Shown here in pieces: positions 26,949 to 63,091 of a stretch of 64,000 nt of DNA. The DNA is from Synechococcus sp. MW101C3 (GTDB lineage: Bacteria; Cyanobacteriota; Cyanobacteriia; PCC-6307; Cyanobiaceae), in the NCBI RefSeq assembly GCF_002252635.1, contig NZ_NQKX01000004.1, positions 1-64,000 on the forward strand, read 5' to 3'. Numbering within the stretch: the first letter of the stretch is position 1; every line of letters begins with the position of its first letter. Both the position numbers and the translations under genes were made by a program. A model generated the notes under the pieces. The model had not been told where the DNA came from and ran no database searches. It saw nothing but the letters and a program-made list of their open reading frames with translations.

Positions 26949-29900
26949 TCAGACCAGTTCAGTGCCGGTGAACAGGCTGTTGTCGAACACACCCAGCTGG
27001 CGGAGTTCGCTCGCTTCCACAGTGTAAGCCTGGGGATTGGCGAAGTCGAAGGACGACTCGGTGTACAGATACAGAGCCGTATCCGTTTGACCCTGCTGGA
27101 CGATCAGGGCTTGGTTGGTGACAGCATCCACAAAGGTGAGGATGCCGACGAGATCACCAAGAGCAAGACCGTTGCCGATCACACCCACGCCGTTGATGTT
27201 TCCAGCAACAGCGTTGGCATCGAACAACTGGGCATCGGTAAGGCTGCGGGCCGGACCGGTGAGGTTGAGGACGTTGCGACCGGAGAGGTTGTTGCCTGCA
27301 TTACCCGTGGAGCTCAGGCCACCCAGGACGAGCTGGGCATTGGTCGCCGGTGCGGTGGAGAGCAGCCCGCCGATGTCGGTGAGCAAGCCACCGGTGATAT
27401 CGATGGAGTCAGCAAGGGAATAGCCGGTGATGAAGTCACCGCCAGTGCCTGTTCCACCAGTGCCACCATCATTGCCCGTGTTGTAGCGGACAACTTCAAC
27501 TGCGCCGGAGAGAGCGATGGTGTCAGCACCGCCATTACCGGCCACTGTCACGTTTTGACTGGGGTCACCAGAGAAGTTGGTGAAGGTGTCATTGCCGGCA
27601 CCCAGGTTGTAGGTGGAACCAGCAGCAGCATTGTCGAATCCGGTGGTGAAGACATCGACAGCCTGGCCCTGAACAAAGCTGGTGGCATTGAGGGTGAAGT
27701 TGTCACCATCAGAGTTGATGTCACCATCGAGATTGACCGCCAAACGACCACCGGTGGGCAGAGGCAGCAGAGTGGTGTCGAGAACCAAGGTTTGGTTGAA
27801 AGCACCGGGGGAAACGTTCAGAATTTCAATGTTCTGAACTTGCGTGCCGGTGACGGTGGTGGTGGAACCAATAACGGCATCGAGGGCGAACACGAGAGTG
27901 TCGACATCGGCACCACCATTGATGCGATCGCCGGGGGTGAAACCACCAAGGTCATCGGTGTGAACGATGCCTTCTGACAGGGCAAATGTAGAGCCAAGGA
28001 CAATGAGATCATTGCCGGCGCCAGCAGTCACCGAATCATCGCCCAGACCCACCCGAACGGTGTCTGCGCCGGCACCAGAGGAAACCGTGTCGTCCTCGTC
28101 TTCAATGCCATCGGCAGTGCTGATGGAGTCAGCACCAGTGCCGGTCACGACCGAATCAGCACCGAGTCCAGCCAACACGGTGTTGGTGCCATCTCCGGCG
28201 TTGATGGTGTCGCTACCCGTACCACCAACGATGGAGTCGTTGCCGACGCCCGTGATCACCGAGTCTTCACCAGTTCCAGCGTTGATGGTGTTGTTACCAG
28301 TGCCGCCATCGATGATGTCATTGCCACCGTCACCCAGTACGGAGTCGTTGCCTTCGCCGACGCTGATGGAGTCAGCACCACCCTGGGCATCGACGGTGTC
28401 ATTGCCACCGCCAGTAACGATGGAATCGTTGCCACCGCTGCCGAGAACACTGTCGGTGCCACCAGCGGTGACAACCGTGCCAGCTGCATCGAGGTCGACG
28501 GTGTTGTTACCGCTACCTGCATCGATGAACAGCGAACGCTCGATGTTGAGGAGGAAGTCGTCACCACCGGCGGTGAAGATCGACTGAAGCCCAGGAGCAA
28601 AGAACAGACCGATTCCACTGAAGCGAACCGGTTGGTTAACAGCCGCAGGGTTGAAATCAAAGATTTCGATGCTGCTGATGTTGGTGAGGCTCAGCTGCAG
28701 AGCCAGTGAGGCGAGCGGGTTGCTGACAGCAAACTCAAGCTCAAGGGTGTCCACACCGCCGAGGCCGTTGGCGAAATCGCCGACTTGCACGTCCGAGAGC
28801 TGGAAGGCCGTGAACGTGTCGCTGAACGCGGTGCCGACAAGATTGTCGGCATTGGGGGTGTAGAAGAGTGCCGTGTTGATAACGACGAAACCAGGCGGCA
28901 CACCCACAACGGAAACGTTGAGATCGGCGCTTTGCTCAACAATGATGCGCCCGGCCAGCAGCGGATCAGCACCGGTGAGGTCGATGTTGAGGCTGGAAAC
29001 CGAACCCGCCAGCAGAGGAGTGGCGCGGATGATCAGCACATCATTGCCATCACCAACAAGGCTGTTGAACTGGTCGACGCTGAGGTCGCGCAGATCAAAC
29101 GTGAAGGTCTGAGGACCATTCACCGAGGAGCCAAGCTCAATAACCTCAAGACCCGTCACGTTGACGAGGTCGACGGCGGTGACATCTGCCGAATCAAGAA
29201 TCAGCAGTGTGTCAGCGAAGGTTTCATCCTGATCGAGCGGTGCTTCACCGAAGGCAAGCACAGATTCGGGGCTGATCAGCTCATCGCGGATGATGATGGT
29301 TTCGCTGTCGGTGTCATCCTGACCGGAGTAGCGGATCGAGATGAGATTGCCAACGAGATCCACTGGGCTGAGGAAGCTCAGATCCAGGGTCACGTTGCCG
29401 GCGTCATCACCAGAAGTGAACACCGAGAAGATGCGTGAGCCGATGTCATCGGACGTGCGGACCAGCTCGTCGCTGAGGGTGATCGAGTAATCAGCGTTGC
29501 CAATCAGATCAAGGGCTTCGATCCGGCTCACCCGCAGGGTTTCCGAACGGAGCAGGGTTCCGCCATTGGCGAGGCTAATGGTGTCGATCCCAGCGCCACC
29601 GTTGATCGAATCGGCAAAGGTCAGGGAATCGGTGTCGATCACCAACTCATCGTTACCCAAGCCAAGCAGAACAGTGTTGGCGAAGGTGTCGTCTTGGATC
29701 ACATCATTGACAACCTCACCAACAACGACGAGGTCATCATCATCGCCAGCATCAACGAGGTTGGCACCGCTGCCAGTGAACACAACGTCAGAGCCAGCGC
29801 CGGAGCTGATGGTGTCGTCGCCTGAACCAATCACATCGCCAGCGATGATCACATCACCAACGATGAAGTCTTGGCCGCTGCCGGTGGTGATGGAGTCGTC

Positions 29901-31958
29901 GCCGAAACCACCCGTCACTGCGTTGTCGCCGTCACCAGCGTTCACAACGTCGTCGTCGTCGCCAGCGTCGATCGAGTCGTCGCCAGAACCAGAGGTGATG
30001 GTGTCGTTGCCCGCGTTGGTGTCGACACTGTTGTCGCCATCGCCAGCGTCGACAAGATCGATTCCATCACCGGTCGTGATGGTGTCGTCGCCAACGCCAG
30101 CGGACACTGAGTTGCGACCATCGCCGGCATCCACCAGGTTGTCACCTTCGCCAACGAAGAGTTCGTCATCACCGCCTACGGTGAAGACGGTGTCGTCTCC
30201 GTCTTGGGTGACGACAAAGAAATCGGTGGGGAAGGTTGGCGACTGGGTTCCAAGCTCGAGGAAGTTATCCCCGATCGCCCCAAACACGCTCACATCCGGG
30301 AGGAAGTTGTTGATGACATCGCCCAGGATCGAGGTGTAGCGCAGGCTCAGATCACCATCGAGAGCAAATGCATTGATGGTGCTGATGCGGCGGTTGTCAT
30401 TGATGGGAAGGCCGAGATCCGTGGTGATGTCGAGGGAAGCATCACCGTCGATCACCAAGGTGGTCAGCGCGTCACCAACGCTGAGCAGATCGACCACATT
30501 GGTGATCGAGCCAAGCGAGGTGAGCGCAAGGGTTTCGATGCTGGCGTTAGCGCTGAGAGGACCCTGGGTGAAATCAAGGCCGAGGGCTTCACCGAAGGTA
30601 GAGTCAACCGGTGTTTCTTCGATGACGACATTAACCAGATTGTTAGAGCTGGCTAGTGCGTTGACGTCGAAGTTGTATTCGATCGTGCTGAAGCTGTCCT
30701 TGATTTTAGTGGTGAAACCAACAGCTGATTGGATGTCCTCAAGGAAGAGGAACCCAAGCTTTGACTGATTGATGTTGATCTTGGTGAGCCCATCGGCTGC
30801 GCCGCTCGCGCCATTGAGGCCGAAGGCACGGCTGAGATCAACGGAGCCAACATCCCAGAGATCTTCGCCAGAAGGATTCAGCTCCAGGGTCTGAATGCCA
30901 AAGCTGGTGAAGTTGCCGATGGTGAAGCCACCATTGGTACCGATCTGCAGGGTGGACTCGGTGCCGGCGCGACCAGTCAGCTGATCGTTCTGACCGAGGG
31001 TCTGATCAGTGCCGATGAATTTGAACTCGGCCACAGCTGTGGCCGTCACCACATCGGTTGCTGTGGTGAGGACCGTTTCGGTGGGGAGGACAACCGGAGG
31101 AGTGGTGTCAATGATCACCACGGAGTCGCTACCAGGCGGCTTGGAGAAGACGATCTGGTTGGGGAAAGTGATCTCAAGGGTTTCCGTCTCGCCAACAATC
31201 GCGTCTTGCGCGATGGTGACCTGGAGGACGCCCACGCCGGTGGCACTGATCTCAACAGTGCCCGCCAGCTTTCCACCGACCACGTCAGCGGCCTGAACAC
31301 CGCTGAGCTCGTAGGAAATGGATTGACCGGCCAGATCTGGGATCGTCTGAATCAGGAAGATGACCGTGCCACCTTCAGTGACGCTGCTGGCATTCGAGCT
31401 CAGCAGCGCAACTGTGCCGACGGGGGGCAGGCCATTGATGGAGGCTTGGGTGGCTGCCGACGAAGGAATGGTGGCCGTGGTAGTGACGGGCACCAGGAAG
31501 TCGACGCCGAAGGTAGTCGCGAGCGGACCGGCGTATTCAAGAGTTGCCGTGACATCCGCTGCCACAAGGCCGGTCCAGGTTTGGGAGGCCGCCTGCTTCG
31601 ATTCCAAAGCCACGCGGTCTGGCGAACCAGCAGGCTGCGCCAGAGCGCCTAGGGCAACGAACAGGCCCACGTCCTGGATCGAAATCTCACCGTTGTTGAC
31701 CTTGGCCGTCCAGAACTGAAGGCCGGCTGCATCGGCCTGACGCCCAAAGGCATTGACGTAGAACGAATTGATGATTTGTTCTGTTGTCTTGCCGACGGTC
31801 GTCTGGGCAAACTCAACGCTTGCAGCAAAGAAATCCGCGACTTGATCGAGGGGCAGGGCAGCCTGAGGGCCCGTGGTCCAGTAGGTGAGACCGGCCGGAT
31901 CCGCTGGCCTGCCGAAATAAGTGATGTAAAGAAGTTGAGTTTCGAGGGCAGTTGCCAT
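26949..31958 (-). CDS. Large RTX protein with DUF4214-like N-terminus (surface or S-layer-like)
   Basis: This 1669-residue protein has no signal peptide. Residues 1-130 hold two DUF4214-like repeats (YITYFGRPADPAGLTYW and YVNAFGRQADAAGLQFW). Residues about 210-280 look like a Calx-beta domain. Two blocks of Ca2+-binding nonapeptides follow (about 578-746 and 1144-1323; for example DSIDAGDDDDVVNAGDGDN), separated by about 400 residues of beta-rich, leucine-punctuated sequence. I see no cysteine. This is the style of cyanobacterial S-layer and RTX surface proteins secreted by type I exporters through an uncleaved C-terminal signal. Upstream are a plausible promoter and a GGAG ribosome site; downstream is a strong terminator. 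An ABC/HlyD exporter pair lies 6 kb away. The exact role is unknown. Confidence 0.9.
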   Translation of the reverse strand: MATALETQLLYITYFGRPADPAGLTYWTTGPQAALPLDQVADFFAASVEFAQTTVGKTTEQIINSFYVNAFGRQADAAGLQFWTAKVNNGEISIQDVGLFVALGALAQPAGSPDRVALESKQAASQTWTGLVAADVTATLEYAGPLATTFGVDFLVPVTTTATIPSSAATQASINGLPPVGTVALLSSNASSVTEGGTVIFLIQTIPDLAGQSISYELSGVQAADVVGGKLAGTVEISATGVGVLQVTIAQDAIVGETETLEITFPNQIVFSKPPGSDSVVIIDTTPPVVLPTETVLTTATDVVTATAVAEFKFIGTDQTLGQNDQLTGRAGTESTLQIGTNGGFTIGNFTSFGIQTLELNPSGEDLWDVGSVDLSRAFGLNGASGAADGLTKININQSKLGFLFLEDIQSAVGFTTKIKDSFSTIEYNFDVNALASSNNLVNVVIEETPVDSTFGEALGLDFTQGPLSANASIETLALTSLGSITNVVDLLSVGDALTTLVIDGDASLDITTDLGLPINDNRRISTINAFALDGDLSLRYTSILGDVINNFLPDVSVFGAIGDNFLELGTQSPTFPTDFFVVTQDGDDTVFTVGGDDELFVGEGDNLVDAGDGRNSVSAGVGDDTITTGDGIDLVDAGDGDNSVDTNAGNDTITSGSGDDSIDAGDDDDVVNAGDGDNAVTGGFGDDSITTGSGQDFIVGDVIIAGDVIGSGDDTISSGAGSDVVFTGSGANLVDAGDDDDLVVVGEVVNDVIQDDTFANTVLLGLGNDELVIDTDSLTFADSINGGAGIDTISLANGGTLLRSETLRVSRIEALDLIGNADYSITLSDELVRTSDDIGSRIFSVFTSGDDAGNVTLDLSFLSPVDLVGNLISIRYSGQDDTDSETIIIRDELISPESVLAFGEAPLDQDETFADTLLILDSADVTAVDLVNVTGLEVIELGSSVNGPQTFTFDLRDLSVDQFNSLVGDGNDVLIIRATPLLAGSVSSLNIDLTGADPLLAGRIIVEQSADLNVSVVGVPPGFVVINTALFYTPNADNLVGTAFSDTFTAFQLSDVQVGDFANGLGGVDTLELEFAVSNPLASLALQLSLTNISSIEIFDFNPAAVNQPVRFSGIGLFFAPGLQSIFTAGGDDFLLNIERSLFIDAGSGNNTVDLDAAGTVVTAGGTDSVLGSGGNDSIVTGGGNDTVDAQGGADSISVGEGNDSVLGDGGNDIIDGGTGNNTINAGTGEDSVITGVGNDSIVGGTGSDTINAGDGTNTVLAGLGADSVVTGTGADSISTADGIEDEDDTVSSGAGADTVRVGLGDDSVTAGAGNDLIVLGSTFALSEGIVHTDDLGGFTPGDRINGGADVDTLVFALDAVIGSTTTVTGTQVQNIEILNVSPGAFNQTLVLDTTLLPLPTGGRLAVNLDGDINSDGDNFTLNATSFVQGQAVDVFTTGFDNAAAGSTYNLGAGNDTFTNFSGDPSQNVTVAGNGGADTIALSGAVEVVRYNTGNDGGTGGTGTGGDFITGYSLADSIDITGGLLTDIGGLLSTAPATNAQLVLGGLSSTGNAGNNLSGRNVLNLTGPARSLTDAQLFDANAVAGNINGVGVIGNGLALGDLVGILTFVDAVTNQALIVQQGQTDTALYLYTESSFDFANPQAYTVEASELRQLGVFDNSLFTGTELV

Positions 31959-36850: not shown

Positions 36851-37650
36851 ATGAGCGCCGTTTCACAGTCCGAGCACGCTCAAGCTGCCGAGGAAGTGCC
36901 GGCAGGGATCCCAGGCGTGCCTGCACCAACACTGCGCTCCCTGGCCCACTGCAACCTGCTGCGCCCCTTCGTTTACCACATGGTTCTTGAAGAAACGCTG
37001 GACAAGCGTGCACTGGAGCAGGAGTTGAGCAAAACCCTGCTTTCGAACTTTCGCAAAGCCAATGGCCTGCAAGATCAAGCCAGCGAAGCCCAGTTCCTGA
37101 GCAAAATGGGATGGACGCAACAGGATTACCTGTGGCAAGTTCAATTGCCACACCGCATTGCCGTCCATTGCGGCCAACACTTTATCGCCAAAGCCGAAGC
37201 ACGATTCCTGGACAAAAAGAACCAACTTGACCAAGTCATCTATAGCCTGATCAGAGTGAAGGATGGCTCTCTTGCCCGCGAGCTTTACCTCAGAATTGAA
37301 GAGGGAGAAGCCACGTTTGCAGAGCTGGCTGAGATCTACAGCGAGGGGCCTGAAAAGACATCGCGCGGACTGGTTGGCCCCCTGCCTCTCAATCAGGCCC
37401 ATCCCCAACTCGCGCAACGCTTGAGAAGCGCCACGGTCGGCTGAGAAGCGCCACGGTCGGCGAACTGATCGCTCCGTTCTCAGTCGAGCAGCTCTGGTTG
37501 TTGGTACGGCTCGAAAGGCATCAACCCGCTAGCCTTGATGAGGCGATGCGGCAGCGGATGGCCCAGGAGCTGTTCGATGAATGGATGCAGGAGGAGGTCA
37601 CCCTTAGGATCAAGCAAATGTGCCCAGCCCCGCTGAACCCTCTCGTATGA
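36851..37650 (+). pseudogene. Cytosolic parvulin-type peptidylprolyl isomerase, frameshifted by tandem duplication
   Basis: The gene starts at ATG 36851 (MSAVSQSEHAQ) without a signal peptide. It has a SurA-like helical N-domain and a PpiC rotamase domain (about residues 125-200: IYSLIRVKDGSLARELYLRI, then YSEGPEKTSRGLVGPLPL). At 37422-37461 a 20-base unit occurs twice in tandem, creating a TGA at 37442 after SATVG. With one copy removed the frame runs on as ELIAPFSVEQLWLLVRLE and stops at 37650, giving 259 residues and an ATGA overlap with the ABC exporter. The reading proves an intact ancestral frame. It may be a mutation, a phase switch or an assembly error. The position suggests a foldase for type I cargo. 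Confidence 0.85.
37422..37461 (+). repeat. Perfect 20-base tandem duplication
   Basis: The 20-mer TGAGAAGCGCCACGGTCGGC occurs at 37422-37441 and 37442-37461 without mismatch. As 20 is not a multiple of 3 it shifts the PPIase frame by two bases and places a stop directly at the repeat junction. Confidence 0.97.
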
Positions 37651-40610
37651 CCACCACCACCTACCAAAAGCTTTGGGAGCTTGAGGTGTTCAGTTCCCTT
37701 GGAGCTGAGGGGAAACAACTGGTGGAGGATACGTCCCGCCTGTTGCAGTACCGCGTCGGGCAGTCGATGGCGGTCGCCAACACCATTCCCAGTGAAGTTC
37801 TGATCATCCTTGAGGGAAGCGCCCGTCTCACTGCCCATCAAGGCACAGGCTGGCGAACTGTCGAGCGATTGGAACCCGGTGAGGTTGTAGGGCTCGCTTC
37901 ACTGCTGAGCGCCGCCCCCTGTGAGGAGGTTCATGCCTCCAGCGAGGTGATGGCCCTGGCCATCCCCGACAATACAATTCTGAAGTTGCACTCCAGAGAC
38001 AAGATCTTTAAGGATTGGTGCTCGACGCACCTCTGGACTGCAGAGCTTGTACGCCTCGTTCAACTCCTTCAAAGCCAATCCGCAGCTTCTCCTCTCAGCA
38101 TCCGTGAGAGCGTGGCGCTGCTGCGATCCGAGGCCACAGTCCGCACTGTTCCGCTCACGACGCCACAGGTCGACGCTGACCATGTGTGGTATGTGGCAAG
38201 CGCAAACCTGCCTGGCTTGGAGATCGGGGCCGTTGTCGCCTCTGGCGCGAGCCTGCCAGCCCCCGTTGGCCCGTTGGCGGCAAGGTTGATTGGATGGCCA
38301 GTCGGGATCATCGAACGTCTTGGCAGAAGCCCGGCCGCTCCAGCTGCCAGCGGCAAAGAGAACGGGAGCCTCATCACCGCAGTGGATGGTGCCGGTCCCA
38401 CAGTCCTGGCTGCACCTGAATCGCCTTTACCCACGGCAGAGAATCTGGGAAGGAGTGATGAACGGCAACCCTTCAAAGTCATCAGGGGGGAGGGCCCCAT
38501 TGATGAAACCCTGGCTTGCTTTCAGATGCTGAGCAGGCAGATGACCCTGCCCTTTCGAAAGGATGCCATCGAGAAGGTTTTACGGCAGCAGCTGCAACGC
38601 GGTCAGGCGCCGAACATGCAATTGGTCGGAAGCCTCGCTTCAATGATGGGCATGCATGTGGTGGGGGCAAAAGTCAGCAGTAGCGCCTGTACCCGCCTGC
38701 AGACTCCCTCCCTGGTCGAATGGGACGGCACCTTTGCTCTCCTGCAAGCCAGTAACGCCCGCGGAATCGTGCTGGCCTCTCCGCGTAAGGGCTTGATCCG
38801 GCTTAGCCCTCAGGAAGTGGATGAAGCCTTCCCAGATGGAATCAACCTTCTTCTTGTCGATCGCACCAGCGTCACACCAGAGCAGAAGTTCGGGGTGTCG
38901 TGGTTCCTGCCGGCGCTGAGGCGTCACCGGGGTGTGCTCACTCAGGTGCTCGTCTCCTCCTTCGTGGTGCAGCTGTTCACGTTGGCCAATCCCCTGATCA
39001 TTCAGGTGATCATTGACAAGGTGATCAGCCAGCGCAGCCTCGACACACTGCAGGTTCTCGGCATTGCATTGGTTGTTGTCACCTTGTTGGAAGGGGTGCT
39101 GGAGAGTCTTCGCACCTTTATTTTCACTGAAACAACCAATCGCATCGATACGCGGCTGGGCGCAGAGGTCATAGATCACCTACTGCGCCTTCCTCTTGGC
39201 TATTTCGATAAGCGCCCGGTCGGAGAGCTGGGCAGTCGGATTGCGGAGCTGGAGAAGATCCGCATGTTCCTGACAGGACAGGCTCTCACCACGATTCTAG
39301 ATGCCGCCTTTTCGGTGATCTACATCATCGTGATGTCGATCTATTCATGGGTGCTGACCCTGATCGCTCTGGCGGTGGTGCCGATTCAAGTGGCTCTGAC
39401 CGTGCTGGGAGCTCCGCTGTTTCGGCGTCAGTACCGTGATGCCGCCGAAGAAAACGCAAAAACACAATCCCACTTGGTGGAGGTCCTTACCGGAATTCAA
39501 ACCGTCAAAGCCCAGAATGTGGAGATGGTCAGCCGGTGGAAGTGGCAAGACCTGTACTCAGGCTACATCAGTAAGTCCTTCGAAAAGACAATTACAGGGA
39601 CGGCACTAAGCCAGACAAGCCAAGTCCTTCAGAAGCTTTCTCAGCTGATGGTGCTATGGGTTGGCGCTACTATGGTGCTGAAGGGCGAACTAACCTTGGG
39701 CCAGCTGATTGCCTTTCGCATCCTCAGTGGATACGTCACACAGCCCTTGTTGCGTTTGGGCTCAATTTGGCAGAACATACAGGAATTGAGAGTTTCCTTT
39801 GAGCGTCTAGCCGATGTTGTTGACACTCCGGAAGAATCCAATGAAGCAGATAAGCAGAAGATCCCGCTACCTGCCATCAATGGCAGCGTTCGCTTTGAAG
39901 ATGTAACCTTCCGCTTCAACTTGTCATTGCCGCCAGTTCTCCACAACGTCAACCTGACGATTCCATCAGGAACGTTTGTTGGAGTTGTCGGCCAAAGCGG
40001 AAGTGGCAAGAGCACATTGATGAAGCTGCTGGCAAGGCTGTATAGCCCTGAATCAGGTCGCATCCTGATTGATGACTACGATATCGACAAAGTTGAACTC
40101 TATTCTCTGCGTCGTCAGATTGGCATCGTACCTCAGGAGCCACTCTTATTCAGCGGTACGATCAACGAAAACATTGCACTTGGCAATCCCAATGCCACGA
40201 GTGACGACATCGTCGCAGCAGCAAAGATAGCCTGCGCTCATGACTTCATCATGAGCCTTTCAGCAGGCTACAGCACAAACATCGGCGAGAGAGGCGCTGG
40301 CTTATCAGGCGGGCAGAAACAGCGCATTGCCATTGCCCGAACTCTTATCACCAACCCCAAGTTGCTTGTGATGGATGAGGCAACCAGTGCACTTGACTAC
40401 GATACGGAACGTCGCCTTTGCGACAACTTGGTTGAAAGCATTCAAGGAAGCACGGTGTTCTTCATTACACACCGTCTAAGCACGATCCGCCGTGCCAAGC
40501 TCATCGTAATGATGGACCAAGGAAACGTTGTCGAACAGGGCACCCATGAAGAACTTGTTCAACTGAAAGGTCGCTACTACGCTCTCTACCGCCAACAAGA
40601 AGGCAGCTGA
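37647..40610 (+). CDS. Type I secretion ABC exporter with CAP-like N-terminal domain
   Basis: This 987-residue exporter has four parts. Residues about 10-115 form a cyclic-nucleotide-binding (CAP_ED) fold, but the phosphate-binding arginine is not evident (LLSAAPCEEVHAS). Residues about 285-400 resemble a C39 peptidase domain without the catalytic cysteine (DETLACFQML, where active enzymes have ECGxACL), as in HlyB. A six-helix ABC membrane domain follows (about 415-690), then an NBD with Walker A VGQSGSGKST, signature LSGGQKQRIAIAR, and Walker B LLVMDEATSALD. The ATG at 37647 overlaps the ancestral PPIase stop. Similar CAP-domain exporters occur in HetC-like and NHLM-type systems. It would export RTX-type cargo together with the HlyD protein. 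Confidence 0.93.
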   Translation: MTTTTYQKLWELEVFSSLGAEGKQLVEDTSRLLQYRVGQSMAVANTIPSEVLIILEGSARLTAHQGTGWRTVERLEPGEVVGLASLLSAAPCEEVHASSEVMALAIPDNTILKLHSRDKIFKDWCSTHLWTAELVRLVQLLQSQSAASPLSIRESVALLRSEATVRTVPLTTPQVDADHVWYVASANLPGLEIGAVVASGASLPAPVGPLAARLIGWPVGIIERLGRSPAAPAASGKENGSLITAVDGAGPTVLAAPESPLPTAENLGRSDERQPFKVIRGEGPIDETLACFQMLSRQMTLPFRKDAIEKVLRQQLQRGQAPNMQLVGSLASMMGMHVVGAKVSSSACTRLQTPSLVEWDGTFALLQASNARGIVLASPRKGLIRLSPQEVDEAFPDGINLLLVDRTSVTPEQKFGVSWFLPALRRHRGVLTQVLVSSFVVQLFTLANPLIIQVIIDKVISQRSLDTLQVLGIALVVVTLLEGVLESLRTFIFTETTNRIDTRLGAEVIDHLLRLPLGYFDKRPVGELGSRIAELEKIRMFLTGQALTTILDAAFSVIYIIVMSIYSWVLTLIALAVVPIQVALTVLGAPLFRRQYRDAAEENAKTQSHLVEVLTGIQTVKAQNVEMVSRWKWQDLYSGYISKSFEKTITGTALSQTSQVLQKLSQLMVLWVGATMVLKGELTLGQLIAFRILSGYVTQPLLRLGSIWQNIQELRVSFERLADVVDTPEESNEADKQKIPLPAINGSVRFEDVTFRFNLSLPPVLHNVNLTIPSGTFVGVVGQSGSGKSTLMKLLARLYSPESGRILIDDYDIDKVELYSLRRQIGIVPQEPLLFSGTINENIALGNPNATSDDIVAAAKIACAHDFIMSLSAGYSTNIGERGAGLSGGQKQRIAIARTLITNPKLLVMDEATSALDYDTERRLCDNLVESIQGSTVFFITHRLSTIRRAKLIVMMDQGNVVEQGTHEELVQLKGRYYALYRQQEGS

Positions 40611-40652: not shown

Positions 40653-41807
40653 GTGAAACTGACCAATCCCCTCCGCAAGCTCCAAAACAACATCGAGCAA
40701 AGCATTCACACAGAATCAGAAAATGCTTCTGTGCTGGAGCAGTCACCATTTTGGGCGACGGCAACAACCTGGGGACTGATTGGCACTGCTGCCTTCGGTG
40801 TGGGTTGGATAGCCTTGGCGCAAACGGAAGAGATTGTGGTAGCCCCGGGAAAGCTAGAACCAATCGGTGTCGTTCAGGACATCCGTCTTCCGGTGGGCGG
40901 CGTCGTTGCGAAAGTTCTGGTTAAGGATGGCCAGAAAGTCAACGCTGGTGAGACTCTGCTTCAATTAGACAGCGAAGCAACAGAGGATCGCCGCCGGAGC
41001 CTCATGCGGGGCATCCTGTTGAAAAAGGAACAGCTGGAGCTCAAAGAAAAGGAGCTTGCAAAATATCTGGACCTAAACTCAACTGAACAGCAATCACTGC
41101 AGCGGAACCTTGAGCTAGAAACAGAGGTGCTCAAGCGCCTGGAAACCCTGACCAAAGAGGGCGGCATTGGCGAGCTACAATATCTCAATCAGCGCAATAA
41201 GGTTGCAGAGATTGACGGAAACTTGAATCAAACGCGTGTTGACAGAATGCGCCAAAAAGCAATCCTAGACCAGAGCATTCAGCAGTTGAGAGGAGAGGTA
41301 AACGAGCTTAACTCCAGCCTTTCCGACGTAAGGATTAACATTCGATATCAGAATGTCAAGTCACCAGTCAACGGTATTATCTTCGGGCTCAAACCAACTG
41401 GACCTGGCTTTGCCGCCCAAACAAGCGAGCCAGTGATGCAGATTGTTCCCTTCGATAAACTTGAAGCCAGTGTAGAAGTTGCCAGTCAAGACATCGGCTT
41501 CGTCAGCGTTGACAAGCCAGTGGATATCAGCATTGATTCCTTTCCAGCCACTGATTTCGGCGTGATCAGCGGTGTCGTAAGACAGATTGGCTCCGATGCG
41601 ATCCCCCCCGATCAGCTGAAACCAAACTATCGGTTCCCCGTAAAGATCAAGTTGAATACCCAACAACTGAAGATTGAATCTGGCCAGGCACTGCCTTTGC
41701 AGGTTGGTATGTCCTTGCAGGCAAACATCAAACTCCGCAAAGTCAGCTATCTGCAGCTCCTCCTGAATACATTCAGAGACAAAGCCGACTCACTTCGTCA
41801 GATTTAG
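40653..41807 (+). CDS. HlyD-family membrane fusion protein
   Basis: This 384-residue protein has one N-terminal membrane helix (about residues 35-58), a biotinyl-lipoyl-like half-domain (VAPGKLEPIGVVQDIRLPVG, GGVVAKVLVKDGQKVNAGET), a coiled coil (about 110-215), the second lipoyl half (VKSPVNGIIFGLKPTGPGF), and a beta-barrel region. HlyD proteins bridge the inner-membrane ABC exporter to an outer-membrane TolC channel; no TolC gene is in this window. The GTG start lies 42 bases after the exporter stop. The canonical C-terminal tail of HlyD is shortened. A strong hairpin ends the operon. Confidence 0.92.
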   Translation: MKLTNPLRKLQNNIEQSIHTESENASVLEQSPFWATATTWGLIGTAAFGVGWIALAQTEEIVVAPGKLEPIGVVQDIRLPVGGVVAKVLVKDGQKVNAGETLLQLDSEATEDRRRSLMRGILLKKEQLELKEKELAKYLDLNSTEQQSLQRNLELETEVLKRLETLTKEGGIGELQYLNQRNKVAEIDGNLNQTRVDRMRQKAILDQSIQQLRGEVNELNSSLSDVRINIRYQNVKSPVNGIIFGLKPTGPGFAAQTSEPVMQIVPFDKLEASVEVASQDIGFVSVDKPVDISIDSFPATDFGVISGVVRQIGSDAIPPDQLKPNYRFPVKIKLNTQQLKIESGQALPLQVGMSLQANIKLRKVSYLQLLLNTFRDKADSLRQI

Positions 41808-45706: not shown

Positions 45707-48367
45707 TCAAGCCACTTGATAATACACAAGTGAATTGGACCCATCTGCTGACTCCACCTGCTGAAAGACCGGCAATGTATCTTGTGCATAGGCTGGAGTT
45801 TCCACTCGGCGATTACCGGGATCCGCAACAACATCCTGGGTAAGGACAGCAACCAAGGCCCAGCTATCTCCACCGTTCGTGCTCTCGCTGACCGCAACAA
45901 CCCCTTCTCCATCGATATTGATATCATAGGCGATCTTGATCGTGCCATCATCCATCAAGCTGATCTGCATGTAGTTGCCGCTGGGCGGATCCGTGATCAC
46001 AACAGGCTCATCCCATGAGTCCGTATCATTATTGTATCGCAAGTAAACAACTCTGCCCTCACCGTTATTCGTGGCAACATGGATGTTGCCGTCCTCATCG
46101 GTCAACGAGCTGAAATGGGTGGCATTGGGATCATTCTGACTATCTCCCTTGATCAAGATTGTCTCACTGACGCCAAGGCTGCCACCAGAGGACGCGCTTT
46201 CCGCAAACTCAGTCCAATTGAGGGTGTCTCCATTGGTATAAAGGACCCCAAAGCCGTCATCCAATGCAATGATGTCACCCGACATCCTGCCGTCATTCGT
46301 TGTATTAGGAATTCCTTGATTGAGGACAGTCCATGTTGCTCCTTGATCATTGCTCTGAGCGACCCTTAGGCTGGCCTGTCCTGTTGACCTGTCGGTTGCC
46401 GTAAACGCTACTACGATCGTGCCATCCTCCGTGACTGCGATGGACGGCCGCTCAATCCTAAGGGACGCAGGACTGGGTGGGATTACCGTCGATTCAATTG
46501 TCCAAGATACACTCTGCTCCGAATAACTCAGGATGGCAAGAGCGATCCTGCCGCCTTCAATTGTATAGACCGAATACAGCTTGCCATCCACGATTACGCC
46601 ATCTGCACGGGAAGAACCAGTGGAGTTCTCCAGCGTGACAGCTGCCATCCATGTTGAGCCATTGTCTATGCTGGAATAAAGTGAAAGCCGGCCATTTGTG
46701 TTGGCCATCACATGAACAGCGCCATCTTCAGTGACCCATGAATGATCCTGAAAGCGCGAGGAGATCATGCCCTCATTCCCGTTCGTGATCGTAGTGGGAA
46801 TACCGGTGATGACATCCGGGGCACTAGGGGCACTTGGGACAAACAGGATGGTGCCATTCACAGAGAAAGCGGCAGGATCGGCCGGCGAGTTGTTCGCGAT
46901 GATCTCATCCAAGTCTTCGCCAACTAGTGTGATTGTCCCTGCATTGCCAGGGTTGGTGAAGCTATACGCTGTGGCGAAGATCTGGCCAGAGGAATTAGCA
47001 TTAACAACATTATTGCCCTGCAGATCGGCGAAGATTGAGCCACCGGTTGTCTCCCTTCCATTCACAACTGCTCGAGCCCTCAAAAGAATGCCATCGCCCT
47101 CAGACTGGAGGATCGTGTTCGCATAAAGTGCGATGTTAATGCTCGAGTTTTCATAAGACAAGATCTTGATTCCTTCAGCAGACTGACTGCTCTGAATGGG
47201 ATTACTCGCAAGTGTTGAGATTGTGTTATTCGACACCATGGCTTCGCCAACTTCTCCATTGACTCCGGCAATCAAGTAGATTCCGTCGGCGTCATTGCCA
47301 AGCGTGGTGACTTCATTGTCTTCAATGTTTACACTCTGGATAACACTATTCCTGAGCACGTTAACATAAATCGCGTCAGACTCTAGGTTGAATTGATTAT
47401 TCGAGCCGCTGCCAACGTCTCCCGTTGTCAGAATCGTGTTGCTATTCACGGTTGCCTGCCTGATCGTTGCCCCATCCAAGCTGCTCAGGTAAACACCTTC
47501 GGAGAGAGGGCCCGACGTTGAAATGTCATTCTGGTTCACTTGCACAGTTCCAATCGAGCCAGATCCAGAGGCCAGCACACGAATACCATGGGACAAGAAG
47601 GCTCCATTCGTGCTGATCGTGTTCCCAATGAGGTCTAGGCGATCAAGGTAACCATTGGAAACGACCACTTCAATGCCAGCTGTTTGTGCACCACTGGCTG
47701 TGATTGCATTATCGAGAATTTGGAGATCGTTGGTCGGGGACGTAGTGGCACGGCTTTCCGTCACAAGGATGCCACGATTCCCATCGCCAATCGCGGAGAT
47801 CTTGTTCCCAGAGATGGTATGGGTATTGGCACCTTGAACCAAGATACCCGAACCACCATTGCCACTGATTTTGTTAGAGAAAGTGTTGTCAACCATTTGC
47901 CCTGTGAGGGGATCCATCAGAGCACCAATCGTGTTGTGACTTGAATTGGCTGTGATTCGGATCCCATTCCCCGAGTTGCCCTGGCCAGTGACACCATCGA
48001 GCATCAAGCCAAAGAAGTTATTCTGAACAGTGATCCCATTCGCATCAAGCCTGAGGCCATCACCACCGGCATCATTTAGTGACAACCCTCGAAGGCTTGA
48101 TTCCGCGGCTCGGCTGCCGCGGAAGACTAATCCTGCTCGACCATTGAAATCAATGGCGATGCCGGGCGCGCTCATGTCATTAAACAATCCACTGATCGCC
48201 ACCCGGTCAGTTACTACGGGCAAACTACTAAACAGGCTGATTGTTCCTCCAGCAAGAGAGGGATCAAAGCCAATCGAATCGAACCCGATAGAACTATTGG
48301 CACTGGTGATTGCCCACCTCAGGGTCCCAATCCCTTGATTGGCCAGGCTAGTTACAAGAAAGTCCAT
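45707..48367 (-). CDS. Parallel beta-helix and Asp-box repeat protein, probably secreted
   Basis: This 886-residue protein has two halves. Residues about 1-500 carry right-handed parallel beta-helix repeats, with many N-x-I-S/T turns such as NKISGNGGSGILVQGANTHT and SNTILTTGDVGSGSNNQ. Residues about 540-880 form a sialidase-like propeller with Asp-boxes SSIDNGSTW, QSNDQGATW, and ESTNGGDSW. I see no cysteine and no signal peptide; the protein begins MDFLVTSLANQGIGTLRWAI, a start shared by leaderless cyanobacterial surface proteins. The propeller lacks the arginine triad I would expect of an active sialidase, so glycan binding is more likely than cleavage. Type I export is inference from the nearby exporter. 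Confidence 0.8.
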   Translation of the reverse strand: MDFLVTSLANQGIGTLRWAITSANSSIGFDSIGFDPSLAGGTISLFSSLPVVTDRVAISGLFNDMSAPGIAIDFNGRAGLVFRGSRAAESSLRGLSLNDAGGDGLRLDANGITVQNNFFGLMLDGVTGQGNSGNGIRITANSSHNTIGALMDPLTGQMVDNTFSNKISGNGGSGILVQGANTHTISGNKISAIGDGNRGILVTESRATTSPTNDLQILDNAITASGAQTAGIEVVVSNGYLDRLDLIGNTISTNGAFLSHGIRVLASGSGSIGTVQVNQNDISTSGPLSEGVYLSSLDGATIRQATVNSNTILTTGDVGSGSNNQFNLESDAIYVNVLRNSVIQSVNIEDNEVTTLGNDADGIYLIAGVNGEVGEAMVSNNTISTLASNPIQSSQSAEGIKILSYENSSINIALYANTILQSEGDGILLRARAVVNGRETTGGSIFADLQGNNVVNANSSGQIFATAYSFTNPGNAGTITLVGEDLDEIIANNSPADPAAFSVNGTILFVPSAPSAPDVITGIPTTITNGNEGMISSRFQDHSWVTEDGAVHVMANTNGRLSLYSSIDNGSTWMAAVTLENSTGSSRADGVIVDGKLYSVYTIEGGRIALAILSYSEQSVSWTIESTVIPPSPASLRIERPSIAVTEDGTIVVAFTATDRSTGQASLRVAQSNDQGATWTVLNQGIPNTTNDGRMSGDIIALDDGFGVLYTNGDTLNWTEFAESASSGGSLGVSETILIKGDSQNDPNATHFSSLTDEDGNIHVATNNGEGRVVYLRYNNDTDSWDEPVVITDPPSGNYMQISLMDDGTIKIAYDINIDGEGVVAVSESTNGGDSWALVAVLTQDVVADPGNRRVETPAYAQDTLPVFQQVESADGSNSLVYYQVA

Positions 48368-48993
48368 TCAGCCCACAACATATACGATATATCTTGATGC
48401 TATTGATAAAAATCTTGTCCTTCTGCAGCCTGGGCGGTGATCTTTATAGTTTTTAACAGTTAGCCGGGCTGGATGCCTCCAGAACCGAAGCAAAGTGGCT
48501 GACAGGTTCTTTTTGCCTGAGCTGCGAGGATTGGCTCGCTCAGTGGAGTTCCCTCACACCAGAATCCATGCCAACGTCTACCGAAGTTGATCAGTTTCTG
48601 ATCAACTCATCAGGAAGATCCCTAATCCCCGCATAGGCGACGGTAGCTACCAGGAAGGATGGCGCTGATCCATGCTCTTGCCCAGGCTCAAGGTCACTGG
48701 AAGCCCGGCTCCGGTTGAGCCAATCCAGCAATAGCCGGCTGCTGATCATCGATGAACAGCCACACACTGACGATCAACGGCAACAGCCTGCCCTGTGTCA
48801 ATCAGGTTGACCGGTAGGAACAGGTGTTCTGAGGCCTGAGAACGCTGTTAGGTTCGGGAGTGCGGCCAGGCTGTAGCGGTGCCTTTCAGCAAAGGTGTCA
48901 CTTTAGGGCTGATCTCAAGCGGCCTCAGCCAAAGGTAGCGCCAGAGTCAACACTGGATCTTCTGGAGGCTTGTTGATCCACACCTGTCCCGTG
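48368..48993. other. Gene-free stretch upstream of the beta-helix gene
   Basis: The first bases are AT-rich with the palindrome-like ATATACGATATAT near 48379 and probably hold the promoter of the minus-strand beta-helix gene. The remainder has no supported gene. A near-identical 23-mer ending GTGTCAATCAGGTTG occurs at 48787-48809 and 48983-49005. Confidence 0.4.
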
Positions 48994-49099
48994 TCAATCA
49001 GGTTGGCGCCAGCAGCGGCTGGGTCGGCTCCATCGCAACGGCTTCGCTGTAACGACGCATGGATCTGCTCCATCAAGCCCCGGGTGTGAAAATGAGAGG

Positions 49100-49332
49100 G
49101 CTGACATCATTCCTGAACCCGGGGGCGTCGGCACCTCGATCAGCGCATCCACCATGGCTGGATTGCTGAGGTCATACCGCTGCTGCATCAGATGGACATG
49201 GAGCATTGTCCTTAGCAGATAGGCAGAGAAACCGCCATTGGAGCCGGCTTTGGGGTAGCGAGCCTCGATCACATGGATCAGTGCCACCCAGGGCACTAGC
49301 TTCTCCATCTCAATCAACAACTTCTCTTGCAT
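49100..49332 (-). pseudogene. IS5-family transposase, N-terminal remnant
   Basis: The minus strand reads MQEKLLIEMEKLVPWVALIH, IEARYPKAGSNGG, and TMLHVHLMQQRYDLSNPAMV followed by DALIEVPT. This is the conserved N-terminal domain of IS5 transposases. After about residue 70 the sequence no longer matches, and the catalytic DDE region is missing. The open frame continues to 48994 with unrelated residues. It marks an old insertion next to the methyltransferase gene. Confidence 0.8.
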
Positions 49333-49467
49333 GGTGCGCTTCTTGGCTGTGGTCTACCCGTAATCGACAAACCCAAGCTGCTTGCAATCTATGGACCCAG
49401 TCCGTACCGACGATCACAGAGCCATTGTCCCGTGAATGGGATGACTTTGCCAGAGTCTCCCCAGTCC

Positions 49468-50097
49468 CTAATGCCTACGAAATGCATAGAGCTGCAGAGA
49501 GAGCGCTGGTATAACTTGCAACCTTCGATGGAAGGTATTGACAAAACTGTCAATGGCGGGCTTAGGCATAGTGAAATGATCCTTTTCTACTGCGCTTTCA
49601 GCATGCCAAAGATAATCGTCAAAAATCAGCAGTCCATCATTTTTAGTGAGGTGGAAGCTCATTACCGCATCACTAAGCACATCGGCTGCTTGGTGGGACC
49701 CATCAATATAAACAAGATCAAAGCTATTCTCATGGCCTTTTGCCAGAAGCCTTGCTAGTGCTCGATGCGAAAAGTCCTTGTGGATTGAGAGCGTAACTGG
49801 ATGCGCTGCTCTATCTCTTGAGATAGAGATATTCTGGCGAAACCTTTCCTCTACGAAACTCATATTCGTGAAATACTTGCCTTCCTCTTGTTGGTGCTCA
49901 ATTCCACCTGCCCATGTATCAACGCAATGAAGATATAGTGGGCGTTCGTTCGCACAATTATCTATCAGCCAGCAGGCTGACTGACCTTCATACGAACCGA
50001 TTTCAAGGATCTTTCGAGGCTTTAGCTCGGAGATCAAACGCTTCCAAATGGGGACATGAGTTTGAAACCAGCGATTTGAAAAAGTCAACTCTGCCAT
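49468..50097 (-). CDS. Class I SAM-dependent methyltransferase
   Basis: This 209-residue protein has the SAM motif ILEIGSYEGQSACWLIDNC (about residues 30-48), HCVDTWAGGIEHQQEEGKYF, and the post-motif FDLVYIDGSHQAADVLSDAV with LLIFDDYLW. It is of the same Methyltransf_24 type as the protein at 17369-18175, but the two differ widely. The composition is more AT-rich than the flanks. It stands alone between an IS5 scar and a 497-base gap, so its partner is unknown. Glycan methylation is inferred from the island context only. Confidence 0.8.
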   Translation of the reverse strand: MAELTFSNRWFQTHVPIWKRLISELKPRKILEIGSYEGQSACWLIDNCANERPLYLHCVDTWAGGIEHQQEEGKYFTNMSFVEERFRQNISISRDRAAHPVTLSIHKDFSHRALARLLAKGHENSFDLVYIDGSHQAADVLSDAVMSFHLTKNDGLLIFDDYLWHAESAVEKDHFTMPKPAIDSFVNTFHRRLQVIPALSLQLYAFRRH

Positions 50098-54613: not shown

Positions 54614-55105
54614 TCAACGTACAATTGTGCCAGGTAGCACTTGCATCAGGCTGCCCATTTCCAGGGCCTGCAACGCATAGCTCCAGCCCAGGTTGCTCTT
54701 GATGCCGGCCCGCTCCAGCGCCTGCTGGAGGGTGTCGGTGGTGAGCACGCCGAAGATCACCGGCACGCCCGTATCGCGGGCCACGGCCGCCACGCCCTTG
54801 CTCACTTCGGAGCAGACGTAATCGAAGTGGGGCGTGTCGCCGCGGATCACGGCCCCGAGTGTGATCACCACCTGATAGCGGCCCGAGGCCGCCAGACGCT
54901 GCGCCACGAGGGGAATCTCGAAGCTGCCGGGCACCCACGCCACATCCAGCTGCTCGCTGCTGGGGGTGACGTCGATGCCGTGGCGAGACAGCGCATCCAG
55001 GCAGGCGCTGAGCAGCTTGCCCGTGACCAGGTCATTGAACCGGCCCACAACAATGCCGATATGGAGGCCGCTGACCTCGGTGAACCGTCCTTCGAAAACC
55101 GCCAA
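54614..55105 (-). CDS. ribH: 6,7-dimethyl-8-ribityllumazine synthase
   Basis: This 163-residue protein has the lumazine synthase motifs [60 protein letters not shown] (with the catalytic histidine), and [19 protein letters not shown]. It condenses ArPD with dihydroxybutanone phosphate in riboflavin synthesis and assembles as a 60-mer or pentamer. The start is TTG at 55105 (MAVFEGRF), 5 bases after the psbZ stop. The short spacing to psbZ and to the ATPase gene suggests one transcript. Confidence 0.95.
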
Positions 55106-55110
55106 GGGCC

Positions 55111-55299
55111 TCAGACCACGAAGTAACTGATTCCCCAGTTGAGCAGAACGAGGGCCACCCAGGCGGCCCCACCCAGCAGGATCAGGCGGTTGGAGCGGCC
55201 GCTGTCTTCGGTGCTCGCGTAGAGCACTGGCACCGCCACGATCAGGGCGAACGACATCACCACCAGGGCCAGAACGGTGAGGGTGTTGAGGAGCTGCAT
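55111..55299 (-). CDS. psbZ: Photosystem II protein PsbZ
   Basis: This 62-residue protein reads [20 protein letters not shown], then [20 protein letters not shown], then [22 protein letters not shown]. Two membrane helices separated by a polar loop are diagnostic of PsbZ (Ycf9), which stabilises the PSII-light-harvesting contact. Its frame is open far upstream, but that is antisense to mutS; the ATG at 55299 gives the normal length. It is the surest sign that the organism is photosynthetic. It heads a run with ribH and the second ABC exporter. Confidence 0.96.
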
Positions 55300-55443
55300 G
55301 GGACCTGCGGGGCCTGGGGAGGGCAGTGCGACGATCTTCCCACGTGGGATTTCCCTCACCTGCGGGCGGCCGCGGGATCCTTCACATCTTGTGGGGAGCA
55401 GCTGGCCCGGGGCCCCTACCATCGCTGCAGCCAGGAGCCGCCC

Positions 55444-58233
55444 GTGGGCGCCGACGCCGATCGCCAGCTCTCGTTGGTGCCTGAGGAGGCGCTGCAGGGC
55501 AGTCTGTTCGGCGCCGCCGAGCCCGCAACCGCACAGGGCGAAGGAGGCAGCAGCAGCCCGGGCGATCTCGACCTGGAAGATGGCGCCCTCGCCGCCGCCG
55601 CTGCCGCCCGGCCCCGGGCCCACTCGCGCCGCAGCCTCTCCACCGATCCCGACACCGACGAAGCCCCTGCCAGCGCCGCCGGCGAAGCCAGCCCGCAGGA
55701 CGTGTTGGCGGAGGACCAGCCACGCTGGCATCACCACAGCCTGGTGGCGGCGGAAGCCCTGCCGCCGATGCTGCGGCACTACGCCGAGCTCAAGCGCGCC
55801 CACCCCGAGCGGGTGCTGCTCTACCGCCTCGGCGACTTCTTCGAGTGCTTCTTCGAGGACGCGATTCAGCTGTCCCGCCTGCTGGAGCTCACGCTCACGG
55901 GCAAGGACGCCGGCAAGGCGATCGGCCGGGTGCCGATGGCCGGCATCCCCCACCACGCCGCCGAGCGCTACTGCAGTGAGCTGGTGCGCCGCGGTCTGAG
56001 CGTCGCTCTCTGCGACCAGCTGGAGACCACTGCCGCCAAGGGGGCGCTGCTGAAGCGCGACATCACCCGCGTGCTGACCCCCGGCACCGTGCTGGAGGAG
56101 GGGATGCTGGCCGCCCGGCGTAACAACTGGCTCGCGGCGGTGGTGCTGGAGCAGGGCGACTGGGGGCTGGCGGTGGCCGATGTGAGCACCGGCGAGTTCC
56201 GCCTCAGCCAACGGCAGGGGAGCGATGCCCTGCACCAGGAACTGCTGCAACTGGAGGCGGCCGAGCTGATCTGGCCCGATCCCGACGCCGCGGCGTACCC
56301 GGACGGCACCGCCGCCAAGCCGGCCTGGTGCCCACCGGCCCTGCACCTCACCCGGCTGGCGCGCACGCCGTTCAGCCTGCCGGAGGCGCGGCGCACACTG
56401 CTGCAGCGCTTTCGGCTTGCCACCACCGACGGTCTCGGGCTGGCGGAGGCGCCCCTGGCCCTGCGGGCGGCGGGCGGGTTGCTGCGCTACCTCGACGACA
56501 ACCAGGCCGGCGCCCAGAGCACCGCCGCCGGCGTGGTGCCCCTCGATCCACCCAGCCTCCGCTTCGCCGGCGATCAGCTGGTGCTCGATGCCCAGACGCG
56601 GCGCAACCTGGAGATCACCCGCACCCAGCGCGACGGCCAGTTCCACGGCTCGCTGCTGTGGGCCCTCGATCGGACCATGACCGCCATGGGCGGCCGGGCC
56701 CTGCGTCGCTGGCTGGAGGCGCCGCTGATGGACCGCGCCGCCATCCACGCCCGTCAGGAGGGCGTGAGTGAGCTGGTGGAGCAGCGCGGGCTGCGGCTGG
56801 CCCTGCGCCGTCTGCTGCGGCCGATGGGCGATCTGGAGCGGCTGGCGGGGCGGGCCGGTGCGGGCACTGCCTCGGCCCGGGATCTGGTGGCCCTCGCCGA
56901 TGGCCTCGAGCGGCTGCCGCGGCTGGCGGCGTTGCTGGCGGCGGCGCGCAGCGAGCCCCTGGCGGCCCTGCGCGAACCGCCGCCCGAACTGGCGGTGCTG
57001 GTGGAGCAGCTGCGTCACACCCTGCAGGACACCCCGCCACTGAGCCTCACGGAAGGGGGGCTGATCCACGACGGCGTCGACGCGCGACTCGATGGGCTGC
57101 GCAACCGGCTCGACGACCAGCAGGCCTGGCTGGTGGAGCAGGAGAAAGCGGAGCGGCAACGCAGCGGCATCCCCTCGCTGCGGGTGCAGTTTCACCGCAC
57201 CTTCGGCTATTTCCTCTCGGTGAGCCGGGCCCGGGCCACACGGGTGCCCGAGCACTGGATCCGGCGCCAGACCCTCGCCAACGAGGAGCGCTTCGTGACG
57301 CCCGAACTCAAGGCGCGCGAGGGCCGCATCCTGCAGCTCCAGGCTCGCGCCGCCCAGCGGGAGTACGAACTGTTCAGCGAGCTGCGCGCCGCCGTCGGCG
57401 CCCTGGCCGCGCCGATCCGCAGCGCCGCCCGGCGCGTGGCCCGCCTCGATGCGATCGCCTCGCTGGCTGAGGTGGCCGCCACCTGCGGCTACTGCCGCCC
57501 CGAGCTCACCGGCGACCGCAGCCTCTGGATCGAGGCCGGCCGCCATCCCGTGGTGGAACAGCTGCTGGTGGAGGAGCCCTTCACCGCCAATGGCATCCAC
57601 CTGGGCGAGGCGGACCAGCCCGATCTGGTGGTGCTCACCGGGCCGAACGCCAGTGGCAAGAGCTGCTATCTGCGCCAGACGGGCTTGCTGCAGCTGATGG
57701 CCCAGATCGGCAGCTGGATTCCCGCCAGCCGCGCCCGTCTCGGCCTCTGCGACCGCATCTTCACCCGGGTCGGCGCCGTGGATGACCTCGCCACCGGCCA
57801 GTCCACCTTCATGGTGGAGATGGCCGAAACGGCCAACATCCTGCACCACGCCACCGATCGCTCTCTGGTGCTGCTCGATGAGATCGGGCGCGGCACTGCC
57901 ACCTTCGACGGCCTCTCGATCGCCTGGGCGGTGGCGGAGCACCTGGCCGACGGCCTGCGGGCGCGGGCGGTGTTCGCCACCCACTACCACGAGCTCAACG
58001 AGCTGGCCGAGCTGCTCCCGAACGTGGCGAACTTCCAGGTGCTGGTGGAGGAAACCGGCGATCAGCTGGTGTTCCTGCATCAGGTGCGTCCCGGCGGCGC
58101 CAGCCGCAGTTACGGCATCGAGGCGGCCCGCCTGGCCGGGGTGCCCCAGCAGGTGGTGCGCCGCGCCCGCCAGGTGCTCGGACGGATCGAGGCCAACAGC
58201 CACGTGGTGGTGGGGCTGCAGGTGGCGGCCTAG
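55444..58233 (+). CDS. mutS: DNA mismatch repair protein MutS
   Basis: This 929-residue MutS has the mismatch-binding Phe-x-Glu in [13 protein letters not shown] (about residue 130), the connector and core domains (with [20 protein letters not shown]), and a C-terminal ABC ATPase with Walker [16 protein letters not shown] (about residue 735), [30 protein letters not shown], and TEHY-like FATHYHEL. It recognises mismatches and recruits MutL. About 95 poorly conserved, Ala/Asp-rich residues precede the mismatch domain. It starts with a GTG at 55444. No mutL is in the window. Confidence 0.97.
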
Positions 58234-58241
58234 GGAAGGCC

Positions 58242-58865
58242 TCAGGCGCGGTCCAGCCAGGCGCGCCGCAGCAGGGCGTTCACCGCCGCCGCCGCCAGAC
58301 CCGCCCCCCCCTTGCTGCCCTCCAGCCGGATCTGGGGCAGGCCGCTGGCGGCCAGGTGGCGCTTGCTCTCGGCCACCCCCACAAAGCCCACCGGCATGCC
58401 GATCACCAGCGCCGGCGGCACCACGCCCGCGACCGGCTCGGGGGCGGCCACCAGCTCCAGCAACCGTTCGAGCGCGGTGGGGGCACTGCCGATCAGCACC
58501 ACCGCCCCCGGCAGGGCCGCCAGGGCCGGGGCCATCCCCGCAGCGGTGCGGGTGCTGCCTTCAGGGGCCAGCGCCGGCGCCCAGGCCAGCACGCTGTGCA
58601 CCGGGTTGCCGAAGCTGCGGCGGGCCATCGGGGTCACCGCCGCCGCCGCCATCGCGGTATCGGTGAGGATCGGCGCCCCGGCCGCCAGGGCCGCCAGGCC
58701 GGCGACGCAGGCGCCCGGGCTGAAGCGCAGCTCCGGCGCAATGGCCAGATCGCCACTGCTGTGCACCAGGCGCTCGAGCACCTCCTGTTGCACGGGGTCA
58801 AGACCGGTGGGCCCCAGCCAGCCCCGGATCCGCCGCACGCTTTCGGTGAAGATCGGATGGTCCAC
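58242..58865 (-). CDS. cobH: Precorrin-8X methylmutase
   Basis: This 207-residue protein has the CobH/CbiC motifs. They are [20 protein letters not shown] with the proton-shuttling histidine, [35 protein letters not shown], and [20 protein letters not shown]. The enzyme moves the C-11 methyl group to C-12 to make hydrogenobyrinic acid or its cobalt form during cobalamin synthesis. It starts with a GTG at 58865, only 11 bases from the divergent holA start, and converges on mutS. Confidence 0.93.
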
Positions 58866-58876
58866 GGCCTGCCCCG

Positions 58877-59845: not shown

Positions 59846-59879
59846 TCAGGACCGATCCACCGTTCGCGCGCGCACCGGG

Positions 59880-63071: not shown

Positions 63072-63091
63072 CCAGCTGATCGCAGCAGGGC

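Follow-up and report, generated by a model that had tools for sequence, protein, structure and literature searches.

A beta-helix joined to an Asp-box propeller in a cyanobacterium: a predicted central pocket and a possible extracellular role on glycans

What does a protein do in which a parallel beta-helix is followed by a sialidase-like propeller, and by which route might it leave the cell? This question is raised by an open reading frame (P0001) in a stretch of 64,000 nucleotides from Synechococcus sp. MW101C3, hereafter called the window. Photosystem II genes were found in this genome and, among 14 control genomes, in that of Synechococcus elongatus alone, which marks the host as a cyanobacterium. 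The gene is a single open frame of 886 codons whose ATG start lies right behind an in-frame stop. Its GC content is 51%, and it is situated in the low-GC part of the window (56% for positions 14001-54000, 68% for 1-12000 and 71% for 55001-64000). The same part holds glycosyltransferase genes, Wzm/Wzt-like and other ABC-2 exporter genes, a tRNA-Gly gene, an HlyB-like ABC exporter with HlyD, and the gene of a 1669-aa RTX protein. A preliminary description had assigned the protein to a glycan and type I secretion island and had noted that it lacks both cysteine and a signal peptide. Profile matches of the neighbouring genes bear the island out, the cysteine count is zero, and no signal peptide was seen by eye; alignments with helix proteins encoded in other genomes begin at residue 1 or 2. 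Scans for a promoter and a terminator of this gene stayed near chance level.

The reading that we favour, with a probability of about 0.4, is that of a secreted, glycan-active protein with one central pocket. P0001 would be an extracellular protein of two parts, the N-terminal beta-helix serving as a stiff spacer or attachment stalk, and the propeller acting on an extracellular polysaccharide through a pocket of R538, Q540, H542, D589, H751, Q801 and E856. The polysaccharide would most likely be cleaved, and at least bound. Export would need no Sec signal, a type I exporter being the most plausible route. The features on which the analysis draws are collected in Table 1.

Table 1. Coordinates of the features in the window and, in the last row, in the genome G140
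Feature	Position	Strand	Evidence
Whole open reading frame, helix-propeller protein, 886 aa	45707..48367	minus	ORF reading, Pfam
N-terminal parallel beta-helix half, residues 1-445	47033..48367	minus	Pfam, AlphaFold, relatives
Tail or linker, residues 452-512	46832..47014	minus	genome search
C-terminal Asp-box propeller, strands read as seven blades, residues 519-886	45710..46813	minus	AlphaFold, Foldseek, VIA-align
Asp-box 1, SIDNGSTW (566-573), blade 1 hairpin	46649..46672	minus	motif, AlphaFold
Asp-box 2, SNDQGATW (672-679), blade 3 hairpin	46331..46354	minus	motif, AlphaFold
Asp-box 3, STNGGDSW (829-836), blade 6 hairpin	45860..45883	minus	motif, AlphaFold
R538-x-Q540-x-H542, inner-strand start of blade 1, 12/12	46742..46756	minus	12-sequence alignment
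H751-F752, inner-strand start of blade 5, 12/12	46112..46117	minus	12-sequence alignment
R854-x-E856-x-P858, start of last blade; E and P 12/12, R 8/12 by column	45794..45808	minus	alignment
IS5-family remnants, directly 5' of the gene	48370..49470	minus	sequence similarity
ABC exporter, HlyB-like (722.9 bits, just under the cut-off of 725.55), with cNMP-binding and C39-like domains	37620..40610	plus	profiles
HlyD-family adaptor, HlyD_3 69.6 bits (over cut-off), TIGR01843 134.8 (under 208.65)	40653..41807	plus	profiles
1669-aa RTX protein with DUF4214	26949..31958	minus	Pfam
Transposase copies in G140	L033 6641-7951, 11345-12286, 12475-13785; L009 7617-8927

Architecture and predicted fold

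The two halves proposed in the preliminary description, a beta-helix and a propeller with at least three Asp-boxes, were both recovered. In the C-terminal half, the Pfam profile BNR_2 (PF13088) matches residues 616-844 at 42 bits, over its cut-off of 31.4, and 11 of 12 propeller sequences match it at E <= 0.01. Three strict Asp-boxes are present, a number never reached in 2000 shuffles of residues 514-886 (mean 0.0055), and in the AlphaFold model each sits in the hairpin that leads from strand three to strand four of its blade (blades 1, 3 and 6). In the N-terminal half, Beta_helix (PF13229) gives 24.2 bits over residues 111-307, just under the cut-off of 25.9; despite this score, AlphaFold stacks helix coils at about residues 170-430. 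The full-length model (7 sequences, pTM 0.48) is good in these coils and in the propeller (533-886), mostly poor in residues 1-130, and poor in the linker (430-532). Fold prediction, which had been suggested as a check, returned a propeller also when this part was modelled alone (pLDDT 79.9, pTM 0.84). By our reading of the model its strands group as seven blades, in a ring that might be closed by strand 519-528 of the full-length model.

Comparison of the propeller-only model by VIA-align gave Z scores of 24.5-29.5 over 305-355 residues to CylK (29.5), the PL42 enzyme FoRham1 (27.9), PHL/PLL lectins (25.7-27.8), GH145 (24.5-26.7) and PL25 (26.0), with unrelated propellers in that list from 24.5 down (22-24.5). 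Foldseek with the propeller alone placed Photorhabdus lectins at the top; GH145 BT3686, Neu2 and other sialidases came after them, in a list that also included PL25 and PL42. The full model retrieved LGI1-ADAM22 as its first match (TM 0.27), ahead of lectins and GH145; LGI1-ADAM22 was given no weight because of this TM value and an rmsd of 16.7. A single-sequence search of the PDB with the whole protein gave no meaningful match, and a profile search matched sialidases (best E 4.5e-6). A propeller fold in common does not by itself show function.

Endosialidase tailspikes of phages follow a plan of helix plus sialidase-like propeller. A tailspike would agree with the viral matches of Foldseek, tail spike K1E and phage G proteins being among them, and with a match to a PHROG 1801 tail fibre at E 0.0086. 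However, no relative was found in three short-pattern scans of viral contigs or by tblastn of 50,697 phage records, and Pfam scans of 21 other window proteins gave no match to a phage family. We put the viral Foldseek matches down to the common fold and set a phage origin aside as highly improbable.

Relatives of the two halves and their fusion

The propeller is rare. It was found in two of 400 family genomes, in its own genome only among 386 genomes of the phylum (the two samples overlap), and in scattered proteobacteria; an initial scan of genome contigs, with two cyanobacterial rows, gave no match. Its own genome codes for a paralog (P0002) of 461 aa, 49% identical over the propeller. The divergent neighbour of this paralog (L004 11530-13257) codes for a 575-aa repeat protein, rich in glycine and aspartate, with no Pfam or NCBIfam match. 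The proteobacterial relatives are found on a plasmid of Acuticoccus sp. (two tandem genes) and in Ideonella dechloratans, Roseivivax, Bosea, Acuticoccus yangtzensis (three copies) and Ideonella azotifigens (three copies, one of them read). Among the literature matches listed there was no account of this propeller family.

The helix half occurs in 12 of the 400 family genomes, its own included. Matches in 10 of the 11 others cover about the first 150-280 residues; the open frames that contain them measure either 340-662 or 1270-1279 aa. In the proteins of the larger size class (L022, L023, L024) several hundred extra residues are inserted within the helix behind residue ~150. No signal peptide was seen by eye at nine of these 11 loci (L017 and L021 left out). 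The linker was found in two family genomes of the 400, its own and the one labelled G140, where a 522-aa protein covers residues 1-514 of P0001 at 67% identity and a separate 452-aa open frame, 864 kb away, holds the propeller. Since helix and propeller are two genes in G140, either P0001 joins them or G140 has split them.

The fusion itself was seen in one genome only among those searched, and this, together with the separate halves in G140, the IS5-family remnants directly 5' of the gene and the copies of one transposase beside both G140 halves, might point to an accident, in which an IS-driven rearrangement joined two genes into a fusion without function or left a decaying gene. Yet all 886 codons are open, all invariant residues are kept, and the propeller remains 71% identical to that of G140. 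We consider an accidental origin of this kind improbable.

The insertion elements themselves may be described briefly. The IS5-family stretch in the window is similar to transposase DNA in two plasmids (18% covered, 67% identity) and to ten other places within its own genome. The G140 transposase appears IS256-like by eye, its copies having the same first 50 residues and one being shortened. About 345 bp separate the inverted repeat of the G140 element from the start of the match to P0001, and no clear target duplication was seen around the element by eye. In G140 a decayed inverse-autotransporter-like barrel (L009 6654-7420; IAT_beta 14.6 bits, under the cut-off of 22.3) lies 1.9 kb upstream of the propeller match, and behind the barrel comes a second copy of the tail of the helix. 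The decayed tail runs into a stop codon before it reaches the IS256-like element. In view of this stop, the 345-bp gap and the lack of a clear duplication, we do not claim that the element split a fusion in G140.

Conserved residues and a candidate central pocket

In an alignment of 12 propeller sequences, whose members are 25-71% identical to the propeller of P0001, eight charged or amide residues are invariant (R538, Q540, H542, N556, D589, H751, E856 and Q870), and H552 and Q801 are kept in 11. Seven of these ten lie within -5 to +2 of the seven inner-strand starts (hypergeometric P 0.0003, for an interval picked after seeing the data and strand starts taken from the model). The seven residues named above for the putative pocket occupy the inner-strand starts of blades 1, 2, 5, 6 and 7. 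Propeller enzymes carry their central site at such starts. Because seven conserved residues are placed at the inner-strand starts of five blades, strand positions rather than coordinates suggest that they form one central pocket.

A search for the catalytic Arg triad of sialidases had also been recommended, and a full sialidase site was not found in these 12 sequences, where one Arg is invariant and one further column has Arg in eight. A true exo-sialidase or pseudaminidase of the GH33 type would account for the Asp-boxes, the BNR_2 match, the sialidase profiles matched in the PDB, and Neu2 and the other sialidases retrieved by Foldseek. The sialidase motif is FRIP. P0001 has SRFQ at that place, however, and the four PDB alignments shown are short and centred on Asp-box hairpins. 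Sialidase activity was set aside on the Arg columns, and its probability appears close to negligible; at the sequence level the propeller does not look like a sialidase. As its conserved residues are unlike a sialidase site, P0001 may represent a little-known branch and be secreted to act on sugars.

A helix stalk with a binding head is a common adhesin plan, and the preliminary description had suggested a glycan-binding adhesin. In its strict form, a non-catalytic surface adhesin, the propeller would be a PLL/PHL-like lectin with several shallow sites between its blades and the helix its stalk. These lectins head the Foldseek list for the propeller alone and are within 2 Z of the best VIA-align match. 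The clustering of conserved charged and amide residues at the inner-strand starts argues against such a lectin, which we hold to be possible, though doubtful. What stands of the earlier proposal is that glycan binding fits the fold; an enzyme would explain the conserved centre no less well than a lectin would. From the conserved residues, catalysis would rate somewhat above pure binding.

A bolder proposal, unlikely as it stands, is that the propeller founds a new family of carbohydrate-active enzymes, seven-bladed with Asp-boxes and a central site of R-x-Q-x-H, HF, Q and E, exported by type I or Sec systems, encoded beside exopolysaccharide genes in several hosts, and fused here to a beta-helix for surface display or to form the site as in CylK.

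Genomic context, export and comparison with known systems

When 17 window proteins were queried against the neighbourhoods of the paralog, of the G140 genes and of six more helix loci, none but P0001 itself gave a match, so that the glycan and secretion context is not common to the cyanobacterial relatives. No exporter homolog was found near the paralog, near the G140 propeller or in the 20-kb neighbourhoods of seven of the 11 helix loci in other genomes (L032-L038), and a conserved linkage of helix genes to an exporter is ruled out for these seven. Among the proteobacteria, Acuticoccus sp. has rfbACD and GH8 genes annotated nearby, and in A. yangtzensis we read nearby genes, from their sequences, as coding for UDP-glucose dehydrogenase and for a glycosyltransferase. 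Both in Roseivivax (L028 8869-10008) and in Bosea (L030 6860-7918) an esterase-like gene stands next to the propeller gene, and the two esterase-like proteins share 36% identity over 165 aa. Near the Roseivivax gene there is also a 991-aa protein (L028 10048-13023) with a match to RND_mfp adaptors in its C-terminal part (107.1 bits, cut-off 94.9).

At its N-terminus the type I exporter of the window has a domain for cyclic-nucleotide binding (PF00027, 29.8 bits, cut-off 27.5), and its more obvious cargo is the 1669-aa RTX protein. P0001 has no GG.G.D nonapeptide, and an RTX cargo was set aside for this absence; in the AlphaFold model its last strand ends at residue 885, so that there is no free C-terminal tail. 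Acidic-then-hydrophobic C-terminal ends mark the cargos of PrtD-type type I systems. By eye, all seven alphaproteobacterial relatives read lack a signal peptide and have a C-terminal end in which mostly hydrophobic residues come after an acidic one. In Bosea, genes for PrtD (640 bits, cut-off 510.15) and HlyD (358.6, cut-off 208.65), the esterase-like gene and then the propeller gene follow one another on one strand. PrtD was over its cut-off in the three alphaproteobacterial genomes tested (0/14 controls), lying in Roseivivax and A. yangtzensis on contigs other than those of the propeller genes. In the fourth genome tested, Ideonella azotifigens, PrtD did not pass, and the propeller protein has by eye a Sec-like signal.

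The suggestion that P0001 is a second cargo of the exporter thus has indirect support: the Bosea relative, one gene behind PrtD/HlyD, favours it, whereas P0001 has neither RTX repeat nor tail, the exporter genes lie 3.9 kb off on the opposite strand, and no exporter homolog was found near the paralog, the G140 propeller or the seven helix loci named above. Type I export of P0001 is plausible, and the adhesin and second-cargo reading is possible. Set beside PrtD-type cargos, the alphaproteobacterial relatives (7/7) share the tail type, whereas the cyanobacterial members (3/3) end at the propeller. Given its gene order, Bosea is where a type I cargo with this fold could be tested directly.

Among the structural neighbours, CylK of Cylindospermum is cyanobacterial and, in the excerpt of PMC8916777 available, is described as an N-terminal solenoid followed by a C-terminal seven-bladed propeller. 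With this domain order, and as the best VIA-align match of both models (Z 29.5 and 29.9 over 331 and 330 residues), it raises the alternative that P0001 is a CylK/BrtB-like cytosolic biosynthetic enzyme, a solenoid-propeller fusion with its active site between the two domains. Against this, identity is 13-14% and Z just 1.3-1.6 above PL42. The CylK solenoid, according to that excerpt, is a calcium-binding RTX-type roll, whereas P0001 has a beta-helix and its sequence lacks the G..G.D calcium motif, though CylK itself has one consensus copy only. Membership of the CylK/BrtB group would also call for equivalents of Arg105 and Tyr473. Furthermore, the window neighbours are glycan and secretion genes, and the non-cyanobacterial relatives read are propellers alone, two of them with Sec-like signals. 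This alternative has little chance of being correct.

PL42 FoRham1, GH145 and PL24/PL25 are glycan-active seven-bladed propellers, and in PL24/PL42 the base-acid His and a neighbouring His are 20-21 residues apart (PMC8377490, in the portion available); an Arg neutraliser completes the site expected of PL42, PL24 and GH145. FoRham1, an L-rhamnose-alpha-1,4-D-glucuronate lyase, is a seven-bladed propeller, as the model of P0001 is read to be, and was aligned over 353 residues. Identity to the PL42, GH145, PL24 and PL25 proteins is nevertheless 10-13%, and the conserved His pair of the P0001 family, H542/H552, is 10 residues apart, not the 20-21 given in that portion. The Photorhabdus PLL/PHL lectins have propellers like that of P0001 and the best Foldseek E-values for the propeller alone; they differ in that identity is 10-15% and that the conserved residues of the P0001 family gather at the inner-strand starts of five blades. 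GH33 sialidases share the Asp-box hairpins and the BNR_2 profile, but have six blades, in the part of PMC2716378 at hand, where the model of P0001 is read as seven, and the P0001 family has no conserved Arg triad. Together, these comparisons describe a branch of Asp-box propellers that is small and scattered, that differs from sialidases in its conserved centre and that has exopolysaccharide or secretion genes near it in some hosts; one expressed protein could tell a new polysaccharide-cleaving enzyme from a lectin.
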